A stretch of DNA of 37,827 nt from a virus, in IMG/VR virus record IMGVR_UViG_3300042937_000322, positions 1-37,827 of that record; one strand, written 5' to 3'. Under the pieces are notes generated by a model. It saw only the letters and a program-made list of their open reading frames with translations, had not been told where the DNA came from and made no database searches. Positions 26,656 to 31,500 of the stretch are shown here, piece by piece (within the stretch, counting starts at the first letter, position 1; each line of letters opens with the position of its first letter). The position numbers and the translations under genes were made by a program.

Positions 26656-28953
26656 TCAATTCACAAGTGACAATTTTCTGTTTAGTTCTGGCTCAACTTT
26701 TTTCCTAAGCTCTGTCTTACTCAGCTTCAATAACTCTTCGTCATCAGGAGCCATGTAAATATGTTTCACGCTGGGGAATTCACGCGATTTAAGGCGACCC
26801 ATATCTTTCCAGCCAGCTTCTTTAAGAGCGTGTAGAAGTGCAGCTTGAGGAACCTTGATGTTACCTGGTGCAGTATTAACCAACCGATCACAGAGCGCAT
26901 GGAATGGCGATGCTATCACACCTGCTGCAAACTCACCGACACGGTTACGCATCAGCTCAACAAGATAAGACTCAGCGCTCGACATGCCTTGCTCAACTAG
27001 GTTTATTTTGAACTCGGTCATCATCGGTGCAGCTGATGGATTGAACGCGCTAACATCACGAGCATACAACCAACTGGCAATTGCTTCATAACCTCCTCCG
27101 GTCTTAAACCACTCCCACATCGATTGCGCTTCTACGTAATCCATACGAGGTGCATGTGACCAAACGCAGAACCATCGTCTGTCTTGTGTTTCTAATTGAA
27201 TAGGCACAGGATCGTTTGAATAAGCCAACACAAACAAACGGTTCACCATATCGTAAGGGTGCAATCCTTTACGGTTGATAGACAGCGTTTCTGGAGGTGC
27301 AGCAATGATAGGTTTTAATTTGTTAGCCAACGCTCGTCTTTCTCGTGCATCGGTTTCTTTTAACTCGTTAAGGACTAAGATTTCACACTCTAATGCGTAA
27401 CCAAACTGGCTGTTCATCGAATCGTTATCAATGTACCCTCGGTTCTTAAAGTGAGGGCCACACACTGCCCAGATGAAAGGCGCATACATCGTATCCTTTC
27501 CAGCTCCTTGATCGCCACCATGCAGAATGGCGTGATTGATCTTGATCTTAGGGTTCTGGACTTTGTAAGCCATGACGTTGAAAATATGCTCCAACTCAGC
27601 TTCGTTAGGCACTAAGTTCTTGCAATGGTCAAGCCAACGAGTGACATTACCAGCCTTACCCGTCACATCAGGACGTGCATCACGCCAACGATTGCCGTAC
27701 ATGTCACCATCAAGAGCGGTCAACATGGTTTCCCCAGCAGCGTAAGTAATCCCCACCAAAGCATGTGCGCCCATCGCTTGTCTGTTCTCGTCATAGCAAA
27801 CTGAGGCTTCTATCTTACGCCCAGTATGAATGGACTTGCACTCAAGATGACGAAACAAAGCGTTGAAAGTAGATCGGCTGACTTCACGTCTGGCAACCAA
27901 ATCAAAATAAGATTCATCGGCTTGAATGTAAGCGAATCTGCTGAACCAATCTTTCTTTTCCAATCGTCCTAACTCCTTACGTTCAACTTCAGCGATAGCA
28001 CTAGCCGCATCTTGGCTAAACATGTCAGTAGGTTCGAGTTTAGCTAACGTGTCAACCATAACTGAGGCTAACAATTCCTCACGGATCCCATGCGAATGTT
28101 TCGGGCCACCTTCTGCCTGCACCCATTCAAGGTAGGTCTTACTGTCAAGATGTTGGCATGACTCATGAAAGCACATGAACGCCCGATTAACAGGATGATA
28201 ACGTGCCATTGGATTGCCATCTGAGTGCGCTGTTGCGTTAATGCAGGTTACACCAACCCAGCCTTCACCATTAGCGCCCTCGATAACATCACCACGCTCA
28301 ACAAGCCACGTTAAAACATCATCTTTACCATCATCGATCAGATCGATACGTTTAACTGTTGCGGTGTCTGCTTCACATGGCGTAACGCCTAACGCTTCAC
28401 ATATCTGAGGTAGGGTGAACTCTAATTCAGGATTAAATTTAACCAATACGGACTTAAAATTATCTCTACCAGGCTTAAGATTGACACTATCAGGAAGCCG
28501 AAAATTACGCACAGCGTTAATTGCGCCCCCATCAGTATAACCTGCATCAGCAATCGCTTTAATAGCTGCACTGAAATCTCCTTTTGTTGGTTGATCGTCA
28601 AGGCTGAAAGTATAACCGTATTGGTAGTTACCTGGTGAAGTTTCCATAATCCATGTTGGAATCAAATCAGGCATTTTTGATTTAGTTCCGACATCATCCA
28701 ACACGAGAAACGCCACCAATTCACAATTGCTTGCAGAAGCACTTGGTTTGCCATCTTTAAAACGCTTAATGATAAAACTTGCCGTGTTACAGTACCAAGC
28801 ACCTTTATAATCATATTTAGAAGGAAGGTAAGCAGGCCAAGTACATTTTTGCGCTCCATCAGCGTGAAAAAGATCGGCTTTAGGAACCTGCTTAACAAAT
28901 AGACAGGTTTCCCCTTCCGGTGATATACTAACAAGGTAATCTATGAAGTTCAT
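26656..28953 (-). CDS. AEP (RepB-like) primase fused to SF3-like helicase
   Basis: 765 residues. The N-terminal part has archaeo-eukaryotic primase motifs: D86-D87 in FLVLDDVGTK, METSPGNYQYGY (about 103-114) and VRNFRLPDSVNLK (148-160). A Cys/His-rich segment follows (C238, H243, C261, H263, C266, H268). The C-terminal half is an SF3/DUF5906-type ATPase: Walker A GGDQGAGKDT at 479-488, Walker B-like CEILVLNELKETD. This primase-helicase layout resembles NrS-1-like and plasmid RepB-type proteins; it would prime and unwind phage DNA beside the family A polymerase encoded one base upstream. The ORF ends just before the operon terminator. Confidence 0.88.
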   Translation of the reverse strand: MNFIDYLVSISPEGETCLFVKQVPKADLFHADGAQKCTWPAYLPSKYDYKGAWYCNTASFIIKRFKDGKPSASASNCELVAFLVLDDVGTKSKMPDLIPTWIMETSPGNYQYGYTFSLDDQPTKGDFSAAIKAIADAGYTDGGAINAVRNFRLPDSVNLKPGRDNFKSVLVKFNPELEFTLPQICEALGVTPCEADTATVKRIDLIDDGKDDVLTWLVERGDVIEGANGEGWVGVTCINATAHSDGNPMARYHPVNRAFMCFHESCQHLDSKTYLEWVQAEGGPKHSHGIREELLASVMVDTLAKLEPTDMFSQDAASAIAEVERKELGRLEKKDWFSRFAYIQADESYFDLVARREVSRSTFNALFRHLECKSIHTGRKIEASVCYDENRQAMGAHALVGITYAAGETMLTALDGDMYGNRWRDARPDVTGKAGNVTRWLDHCKNLVPNEAELEHIFNVMAYKVQNPKIKINHAILHGGDQGAGKDTMYAPFIWAVCGPHFKNRGYIDNDSMNSQFGYALECEILVLNELKETDARERRALANKLKPIIAAPPETLSINRKGLHPYDMVNRLFVLAYSNDPVPIQLETQDRRWFCVWSHAPRMDYVEAQSMWEWFKTGGGYEAIASWLYARDVSAFNPSAAPMMTEFKINLVEQGMSSAESYLVELMRNRVGEFAAGVIASPFHALCDRLVNTAPGNIKVPQAALLHALKEAGWKDMGRLKSREFPSVKHIYMAPDDEELLKLSKTELRKKVEPELNRKLSLVN

Positions 28954-28954
28954 A

Positions 28955-30835
28955 TTATTTTCCGTATCGAAACATTGTTGTTATTTCAATGTCTAATGGT
29001 ATCCCCTCAGCCCAAACTGGGGGAGTACACATGACAGACATCATTCTTTTTGTAACTTCTTCAGCGTCATCTGCTTTACACTCCACAACAATCTCGTCAT
29101 GAATATGTGCGATCACGTTATCTAATTGGCGTAGCGAGTATCTTAGTAGATCATTAGCAGTTGCTTGAGCGCAGTTTTCTTGTGCGATACCTTGCCACAA
29201 TCGAGCGCGAGGCCATTCTTCAGCATCAGAAGCAGGTTTGAACGCTGCCTTAAGGTAAGTAACAGCGCCATCTTCTAACCGAGCAAATGGGTAACATAAC
29301 ACTCGCCCAGAAGGTAGAATATACCACAGGTGATTACCATCAAACAAATACGTCACTCGACCTGCCGAGAACTCGTGCCCCTTATGACGCATTGCGCTCA
29401 TGTAAGCACGTTCTAACTCTTGGCCGTACGGGATGCACCAGGGGTTTGCCACGCGCCAACCATTAATCATGCGTTTGATTTGGTGTTCAGGCATCTCAAG
29501 ACCGTAAATTCTAGCCATCGATGCAAACGCACCAGCTCCACCTGAATATCCTAGCGCCAACTCTTGCACCTTACCGATGAAACGTTGATCTTTAGTGACT
29601 TCTTTAACGTTAAAAGTAGACTTAGCATTTTCGACATAAACATCGCCACCGGATCGAAAGATGTCCAACTTTGCTTCCGATGCCACATGATTAGATAACC
29701 ACGGATTACATCTTGCTTCAATACCTGCCCAATCAGCCACAACTAAAACACTACCTTTAGCAGGGATAATAGCAGGTCTAATCATGCCTTTCAGCACGTC
29801 TGTAACACGATTACCAAACGCACCAAGATCAGCACCTGCCATCATGGCTGAACGCACAGCAACAGGGTCTTTGGCACACACACGACTCATGTTCTGTAAC
29901 TGAACGCCATACGAACTAGCACGGCCTGTCGCAGAACCGCCATTAAAAACAAACGCACCACGAACGCGCCCATCTTCAATATCTGCCAGCTCTGCCATGC
30001 GTTTAAACTTAGCTACTGATGATGCACTAATGTCATCGATACACTGAACAACATCCAGCACTTCATCAGGTAGATCAAGTTGCAGTAAAGCCGAGCGCGT
30101 AGCTTTGTTGAGCGACAGCTTGTCGTCAACCATCATCAGTTCAGGATCAACGCGGTCAGCTACCCATTCTTTTAATTTAGGCGAACGGGCGGAAGCGATG
30201 CCAGTAATGTCTTTGACTAAGGCTTGAATGTCCTCCAGTTCAGCCGTAGCGTAGCCAATAGCAGCATGGCATAACGGCACATCAATCAACAGCCCTTTAT
30301 CATTAATGCGTTCATTGACATGGTAATCCAGCAGTTCATCATCAGATAATTGACGTAATGCTAAACTGACTTCACGCATAGCGCGAACGTCTTGCTCACA
30401 GTAATGAATTAACTCAGGCAATAACGCAGTATTGTACGGAGGTACGCAACATTGACGGATCAACTGCTTACCTCGATGATCTTTTTTCATCTTGGCTGAC
30501 ATCGCCCGTCCAATATCTTCAAGACTTCCAGGCAAGCAATTAGCCCTTGCTTGTGTAGCGGTGCAATAGAACTGCTCCAGCTCAAAGTTAATACCTAACA
30601 CAAACCAAAAAATTAATCTCTCGAATACCGAATTATGTGCGCGTATCTGACCTTTGAAGTTTCTGACACGTTCAGGGAATGGTTGTTCAGGTGTCCAAGT
30701 TTGGACATCTTCATCATCAAAAGCATAAGACATGCACAACACTTCAGTGCTTCTGTCTTGACAATAATTGTAAATTCCAAATTTTTTTAGGTCACAAGCT
30801 GATTTACTTTCAAAATCAATAAACAACATGTGCAT
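28955..30835 (-). CDS. DNA polymerase, family A
   Basis: 626 residues from ATG 30835, chosen because AAGGAG lies 6 nt upstream; a start at 30895 would precede that site. Exonuclease: D7-x-E9 in FIDFES and YCEQD near 145-149. Polymerase: TGRAS (303-307), motif A VVADWAGIEAR with D368 and E373, motif B RFIGKVQELALGY with K422, motif C HIHDEIVVE with H579-D580-E581. Both proofreading and synthesis residues are present. Motif A has Trp where cellular enzymes have Tyr, common in phage members. It copies the genome together with the primase-helicase. The HNH gene overlaps its first 20 bases. Confidence 0.94.
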   Translation of the reverse strand: MHMLFIDFESKSACDLKKFGIYNYCQDRSTEVLCMSYAFDDEDVQTWTPEQPFPERVRNFKGQIRAHNSVFERLIFWFVLGINFELEQFYCTATQARANCLPGSLEDIGRAMSAKMKKDHRGKQLIRQCCVPPYNTALLPELIHYCEQDVRAMREVSLALRQLSDDELLDYHVNERINDKGLLIDVPLCHAAIGYATAELEDIQALVKDITGIASARSPKLKEWVADRVDPELMMVDDKLSLNKATRSALLQLDLPDEVLDVVQCIDDISASSVAKFKRMAELADIEDGRVRGAFVFNGGSATGRASSYGVQLQNMSRVCAKDPVAVRSAMMAGADLGAFGNRVTDVLKGMIRPAIIPAKGSVLVVADWAGIEARCNPWLSNHVASEAKLDIFRSGGDVYVENAKSTFNVKEVTKDQRFIGKVQELALGYSGGAGAFASMARIYGLEMPEHQIKRMINGWRVANPWCIPYGQELERAYMSAMRHKGHEFSAGRVTYLFDGNHLWYILPSGRVLCYPFARLEDGAVTYLKAAFKPASDAEEWPRARLWQGIAQENCAQATANDLLRYSLRQLDNVIAHIHDEIVVECKADDAEEVTKRMMSVMCTPPVWAEGIPLDIEITTMFRYGK

Positions 30836-31343
30836 AGGTAGCTCCTTTTTTAAGTTTATAAATAGTACTTCTATTAACTTTAAAAATGGCTGCAATAGCT
30901 ATATTTGATAAGCCTTCAGAAATCAATCTTTTTATAGTTAAAGCTTCTTCATAAGTAAACTTACCACTTTCATGAAGTAATCTCCTATCAGCTCTATTTT
31001 CTTTTACAGTCCCCCAAGATAAATTTAATACACAATTATTTTTAGGATTACCATCTGCATGTAAACATTCAATACGTAAGCTATCAGGATGAATAGGTTT
31101 CAAAGAAACAAAAGTTAATAATACTAAATGGTGAACGTAATAAAAAGAACCTTCAAGCCGTACAAAACAATGCCCGCTTTGCAAAACAGTTACATTTAAA
31201 AGCTTACCTTTTACAAAATATCTTCTTCTTTTGTCTGTTTCAAGTCTAATCTTACTTAATCTATCTAAAGACCTTACATTACCTAAATCACTAACTTGGT
31301 ATCGGCCCTCATAATTAGGTATATCTTTCCAAATCTCATTCAT
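30816..31343 (-). CDS. HNH homing endonuclease with NUMOD4 domain
   Basis: 175 residues from ATG 31343 with AGAGG 5 nt upstream; the longer upstream frame would run through the leader RNA and is not used. NUMOD4 lies at residues 2-27 (NEIWKDIPNYEGRYQVSDLG). The HNH core is about 85-110: ECLHADGNPKNNCVLNLSWG. The C-terminus is a helix-turn-helix (EALTIKRLISEGLSNIAIAA, STIYKLKKGATYAHV), also found in the second HNH protein at 35.3 kb. Such free-standing enzymes cut alleles lacking the gene and so spread. It sits between replication genes and is preceded by its own promoter and structured leader. Confidence 0.9.
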   Translation of the reverse strand: MNEIWKDIPNYEGRYQVSDLGNVRSLDRLSKIRLETDKRRRYFVKGKLLNVTVLQSGHCFVRLEGSFYYVHHLVLLTFVSLKPIHPDSLRIECLHADGNPKNNCVLNLSWGTVKENRADRRLLHESGKFTYEEALTIKRLISEGLSNIAIAAIFKVNRSTIYKLKKGATYAHVVY

Positions 31344-31358
31344 AAAGCCTCTTAAAAC

Positions 31359-31461
31359 AAAAAAGCCTTGTGCTACATTCTCACCCAAAGGCGTTGGCGG
31401 ACTCGAAAGGTATCGAGCAGAATGTAGTACAAGGCTTACCTTAAAATACGCCGCCAAGCGT
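31359..31461 (-). ncRNA. Structured leader RNA with pseudoknot and terminator stem upstream of HNH gene
   Basis: On the minus strand, 5' to 3': hairpin P1 TACGC/GCGTA (31458-31462 with 31447-31451) whose six-base loop TTGGCG is fully complementary to CGCCAA at 31394-31399, predicting a pseudoknot. A 19-bp stem with one A-C mismatch (31419-31437 with 31363-31381) encloses a hairpin CTCGA/TCGAG (31402-31417), the pseudoknot strand, and a small CGCC-TTTG-GGTG hairpin (31382-31393). A T-run follows directly. The RNA is about 100 nt long and ends 16 nt before the HNH start. It could be an attenuator, riboswitch-like element or stable RNA; the family is not recognised. Confidence 0.7.
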
Positions 31462-31467
31462 AATGAA

Positions 31468-31476
31468 ATTATACCA
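31468..31476 (-). promoter_or_regulatory. Extended -10 promoter for leader RNA/HNH/polymerase operon
   Basis: The minus strand reads TGGTATAAT, a perfect TATAAT with the TGn extension. No good -35 is visible because that region is the upstream terminator hairpin. Expected start is near 31461, at the first bases of the P1 hairpin of the leader RNA. The coat promoter contains a similar ATGGTATA and also follows a terminator. Confidence 0.6.
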
Positions 31477-31477
31477 T

Positions 31478-31500
31478 AAAAAACCCCTCATAAAGAGGGG
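31478..31500 (-). terminator. Intrinsic terminator after 210-residue gene
   Basis: CCCCTC (31484-31489) pairs with GAGGGG (31495-31500), with a 5-nt loop; on the minus strand it is followed by six T residues. It begins 12 nt after the upstream gene's stop codon and ends beside the extended -10 promoter, so it separates the first two replication genes from the rest. Confidence 0.87.

Follow-up and report, generated by a model that had tools for sequence, protein, structure and literature searches.

A promoter-led leader RNA with competing predicted folds, a candidate transcription attenuator in a phage homing-endonuclease cassette

What does the structured stretch in front of a phage homing-endonuclease gene do, when the genes behind it encode replication proteins? 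The question arises in the window studied here, the whole 37,827 nt of IMG/VR virus record IMGVR_UViG_3300042937_000322. A 120-nt leader precedes genes for an HNH protein, a DNA polymerase and a primase-helicase-like protein (Table 1). The gene upstream of the element encodes 210 aa and matches phrog_9528; the polymerase gene lies on the other side. The HNH protein matches NUMOD4 strongly and HNH_3 weakly (E 0.012). Its gene runs at the 3' end into the polymerase start, and this end contains the polymerase ribosome site, AAAAAGGAG. A NUMOD4/HNH gene at one site, present or absent among close relatives, fits on sequence comparison the description of a free-standing homing endonuclease cassette.

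The initial annotation described a leader that carries its own promoter and an internal terminator-like hairpin, placed before the HNH, polymerase and primase genes. Every part that it listed is found where it was placed on the minus strand: a terminator-like hairpin, an extended -10, a loop and its complement, a 19-bp stem with one mismatch, a T-run and the HNH ribosome site. Anatomy and comparison with relatives support the arrangement; termination and switching stand as predictions. The element is real and probably a transcription attenuator. For the full proposal, a cis-acting transcription attenuator carried by the phage homing-endonuclease cassette, we consider the chances about even.

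Table 1. Features of the leader and its surroundings (positions in the window).
Feature	Position	Strand	Basis or remark
Hairpin and T6, terminator-like, after the 210-aa gene	31478..31498	-	kept as hairpin at same junction in relatives
Extended -10 promoter TGGTATAAT	31468..31476	-	sequence
Leader RNA unit, 120 nt	31344..31463	-	same sequence in L002, L004, L018
5' hairpin TACGC(TTGGCG)GCGTA	31447..31462	-	sequence, fold
Alternative three-way junction	31394..31458	-	MFE of first 70-86 nt
P1 of three-way junction: CTTGGCGG/CCGCCAA
P2 of three-way junction: GTA..TAAGG/CCTTG..TAC
P3 of three-way junction: GCTCGA/TCGAGT, loop TACCTT
CGCCAA, partner of TTGGCG 31457-31452; pseudoknot strand or P1' of three-way junction	31394..31399	-
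19-bp stem, one mismatch, two small hairpins inside; terminator hairpin	31363..31437	-
U-tract TTTTTTGTTT, predicted 3' end of short transcript	31355..31364	-	sequence
AAGAGG, HNH ribosome site	31348..31353	-	sequence; ATG at 31343
NUMOD4-HNH homing-endonuclease gene, 175 aa	30816..31343	-	PF07463 E 2e-15, phrog_59 HNH endonuclease
Family A DNA polymerase gene	28955..30835	-	PF00476, phrog_17
Primase-helicase-like gene	26656..28953	-	PF19263, phrog_1156 DNA primase

The predicted transcription start (+1) is 31461 on the minus strand. The motif TGNTATAAT occurs once in the whole window, both strands counted. A promoter-like consensus scan from the element to the polymerase gene finds nothing better than the extended -10. 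L018 (TGCTATACT) and L012 (TGGTATAGT) retain TGnTATAnT at the same distance from the start, although adjacent bases differ; preservation in three cassettes with different surroundings argues for the attenuator, and use of the promoter by the leader is presumed from sequence. The counterpart in relatives of the hairpin upstream of the promoter lies just before the polymerase ATG. The -10 may have arisen by duplication of the polymerase start by the cassette, since ATGCTATAC/ATGGTATAA past the U-tract resembles the polymerase start of relatives, ATGCTATAT.

The long stem is formed by AAGCCTTGTACTACATTCT (31437-31419) and AGAATGTAGCACAAGGCTT (31381-31363), and the T-run follows. It is the only inverted repeat of 19 bp with one mismatch and a gap below 60 nt on the minus strand of the window. 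On the plus strand no T follows the stem, so the terminator would work in one direction. A simple consensus terminator scan with a loop limit of 8 does not list this long-loop hairpin, a point against the attenuator. Folding 31350-31470 yields a minimum free energy of -43.1 kcal/mol (z = -4.74; none of 200 shuffles as good), with a 5' hairpin of 6 bp and a loop of 4 nt. The conflict-free nesting of the parts had been called rare by chance. The long stem and the fold stability are unusual. The loop and its complement, which lies 53 nt downstream, are weak evidence; 12 of 4000 region shuffles contain a hairpin with a 5-bp stem whose entire 6-nt loop can pair with a later 6-mer, and about one per window strand is expected.

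Folds were also computed on growing transcripts. The first ~76 nt give a three-way junction (-24.7 kcal/mol, z -3.5; none of 500 shuffles does as well), in which P1, an extension of the TTGGCG/CGCCAA pairing, closes the junction around two hairpins. The 19-bp stem is favoured from about 90 nt on, before the U-tract is made, and in the full-length transcript its fold is 13 kcal/mol better than the junction. The junction uses strands of the 5' hairpin and of the long stem, and excludes both alike. The six loop pairs had been read as a pseudoknot, among parts said to nest without conflict. The parts do conflict, and the pseudoknot is one reading of pairs that can also form a nested three-way junction; in closing it they are incompatible with the 5' hairpin and the long stem. 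On the computed folds, closure of the junction accounts better for these pairs: no pseudoknot geometry has to be assumed, and the complementarity is given a reason. A pseudoknot atop the completed terminator hairpin is possible. All leader copies found are identical, and the pairs thus have no covariation support.

Classical transcription attenuators have two mutually exclusive folds, one of which is the terminator. The window leader resembles them in that its early fold shares strands with the terminator; it differs in that no leader peptide, ligand or protein has been identified for it. A stable stem with a U-tract directly after it lies between the promoter and the first gene, and a competing upstream fold that excludes the terminator is predicted. 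Two mutually exclusive folds, one of them the terminator, make up the anatomy of an attenuator, and since each of these strand-sharing folds is far better than shuffles, they favour this reading. Transcription would begin at about 31461 at the extended -10 promoter, and the first ~76 nt would adopt the three-way junction closed by CTTGGCGG/CCGCCAA. As the 3' arm emerges, the 19-bp stem would displace the junction; stem and U-tract would then release polymerase at about 31358. The majority of transcripts would be RNAs of about 104 nt, and a minority would read on into the HNH, polymerase and primase genes. Its purpose would probably be to hold endonuclease levels down and to make both the endonuclease and the replication genes behind it depend on read-through. 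If this is true, a homing-endonuclease cassette can insert its own promoter and a two-state terminator in the middle of a replication operon, and the host phage's polymerase is placed behind the cassette's own brake.

Precedent for this reading comes from terminators and hairpins of T4-like phage endonucleases (PMC2988022). Stable hairpins precede the ribosome sites of homing endonucleases in T4-like phages, and mobE and segF have terminators at their 5' end, with about 30% termination for mobE (PMC2988022). There, as proposed here, a terminator lowers the transcripts of a free-standing endonuclease among essential genes (PMC2988022). In mobE and segF the terminator lies within the coding sequence, and neither a promoter of its own nor an alternative fold is described for it (PMC2988022), whereas the window terminator is part of a leader that a dedicated promoter precedes. 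By analogy, the kind of device is already known from T4-like phages (PMC2988022); what is new is the promoter joined to a two-state leader.

The closest loci compared number 26 (L002-L027). The leader and an HNH gene occur together in four of them (L002, L004, L006, L018), and in one (L012) a different HNH gene occupies this junction, preceded by an int-alpA-like leader. No cassette is present in the remaining 21, where the polymerase gene begins within 32-77 nt of a short U-tract hairpin. Leader and HNH gene go together in all four related contigs (4 of 4), and none of the 21 cassette-free relatives has the leader, which argues for the attenuator, as does the recurrence of promoter, structured leader and HNH gene at the L012 junction with another RNA. 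The polymerase had also been proposed to depend on read-through of the element. This is plausible, but the dependence would not be new with the element, since relatives lacking the cassette also have a U-tract hairpin directly in front of the polymerase gene, which leaves a promoter little space. HNH bodies of the window, L004 and L018 are 34-41% identical, so three endonucleases would be served by one leader.

The leader is sharply bounded. Between the window and L018 the neighbouring genes have 80-87% DNA identity; for the stretch of hairpin and promoter the value is 88.6%, and for 79 nt at the HNH start it is 82%. The leader is 100% identical over its 120 nt, which begin 2 bases 5' of the predicted start and run up to the ATG; a stretch as diverged as the flanks should show about 18 changes. 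An identical leader between diverged flanks favours the attenuator. From these comparisons it is a discrete unit, either very strongly constrained or recently exchanged. A functional unit is favoured because the edges fall at the start site and the start codon; recent exchange is favoured because the linkers are identical too, and the 100% identity may, against the attenuator, reflect such exchange and not function. A sharp-edged identical leader in diverged phages is a clear test candidate for how cassettes limit their cost.

L004 shares the leader but has a replaced HNH body. In L004/L366 and L026 the polymerase gene has a replaced stretch of about 270 nt at its start (75% aa identity for L366), while the upstream gene is about 96% identical to that of the window. 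The HNH/polymerase start thus appears as a recombination edge, as expected for homing-associated exchange. Searches further afield add no copies. Distant blastn against phages and plasmids gives terminator, NUMOD4-start or chance matches only. A genome-contig scan with the P1/P1' pattern gives 31 matches, judged to be chance (GC-rich, coding-looking sequence). R2, a single-sequence-like covariance model, finds only the known copies in all fetched loci, and a search from the L004 HNH protein finds no further leader.

The leader may instead be a small-RNA gene, whose ~104-nt structured RNA works on targets in trans or serves as a decoy, with HNH and polymerase expressed mainly by upstream read-through; we regard this as possible, on the unlikely side. 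The anatomy of such a gene is complete (promoter, hairpin at +1, terminator and 3' U-tail), the exact conservation exceeds what a plain attenuator needs, and the pyrimidine loop TACCTT could pair with ribosome sites. However, the leader is found solely beside HNH genes, at one junction, and no clear target in trans emerges among the many complementary 6-mers. An extension of the attenuator proposal is that the leader represents a new sensing or protein-binding class, in which a phage or host factor would stabilise the junction and so link expression of the endonuclease and the replication genes to infection state, and which would move between phages as a unit. This is clearly unlikely.

A passive insulator, a strong hairpin close before the ribosome site that shields the HNH transcript or prevents other structures from forming upstream, with hardly any regulatory effect, is decidedly unlikely. 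Its precedent is seg43(25) of Aeromonas phage 25, where a hairpin of great stability lies right in front of a ribosome site that is itself unsequestered (PMC2988022). The window hairpin likewise lies directly 5' of the endonuclease gene's unsequestered ribosome site; for seg43(25), unlike the window, neither a U-tract nor a competing three-way junction is described (PMC2988022), and in an insulator both the U-tract right after the stem and the competing junction would be superfluous.

In a search of Rfam at gathering and permissive thresholds (to E 10) the leader matches no family. This agrees with the annotation's remark that the conserved bases of a known class are not seen, and leaves the suggested likeness to a pistol ribozyme or known riboswitch unsupported, as the Rfam models of both give no match. 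Relationship to int-alpA RNA (RF02996) was considered separately. It likewise provides a three-way junction leader before phage genes, and the window leader has the P1-P2-P3 junction as a predicted transient fold only. The leader of L012, at the same junction, scores 35 bits with our model R1, whose training set contained L012, and 15.8 bits with Rfam's int-alpA model, below threshold; the similar leader of L103 is just above it (35.9 bits against 35.8). The window and L012 leaders each fold as a three-way junction, and have the 10-mer GAGTCCGCCA in common at a corresponding position (18 of 3000 shuffles). Membership of the window leader was rejected: it has no Rfam match, scores -0.6 bits with R1, and lacks the conserved junction core of CUAGG and CCCGAAAAG. 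In the int-alpA-like leaders found here the P3 loop pairs with a strand near the ribosome site; in the window leader it does not. That the leader is a divergent int-alpA relative with its central part replaced is improbable.

The HNH frame is open across the whole leader (31457-31343) from a TTG, probably by chance, and it is very improbable that the leader codes for an N-terminal HNH extension; 38 stop-free codons are not unusual, and the reading was rejected since the TTG has no ribosome site, related HNH proteins begin MNEIWKD, and the AAGAGG is properly spaced from the ATG. A self-cleaving ribozyme is scarcely credible: the pairing of loop to junction resembles the pistol topology in resemblance only, and no Rfam ribozyme matches up to E 10.

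Other RNAs came to light in the comparison. An int-alpA-like RNA heads very many phage genes, in about 120 IMG/VR contigs at least (L012:6679-6730, L103:3368-3416, and L124-L243, e.g. L129, L136, L185). A strand that can pair with its P3 loop lies mostly 8-14 nt past P1'. A P3-loop complement of at least 6 nt is found in 77% of 35 distinct loci, versus 19% with loops and downstream parts swapped. Several loci have a second copy of the complementary strand, overlapping the ribosome site. Rfam labels this RNA an sRNA, but these patterns look more like those of a translational switch that acts in cis.

In more distant relatives the junction before the polymerase gene has other RNAs that look structured, with GGGG...CCCC as closing pairs and CCCC(A/G)CCT at the end (L030, L043, L065, L080, L376, L382, L384, L386); they are also found at the homologous junction in L033, L034, L040, L057, L062, L063, L071, L072, L074 and L081. 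An Rfam scan of ten such loci gave no match. They often abut the polymerase start codon, with no obvious ribosome site. In cassette-free L003, L331, L342 and similar loci the order is AAGGAG, hairpin, U6-7 and polymerase ATG; this hairpin may both serve as a terminator and bring a distant ribosome site near the start codon.
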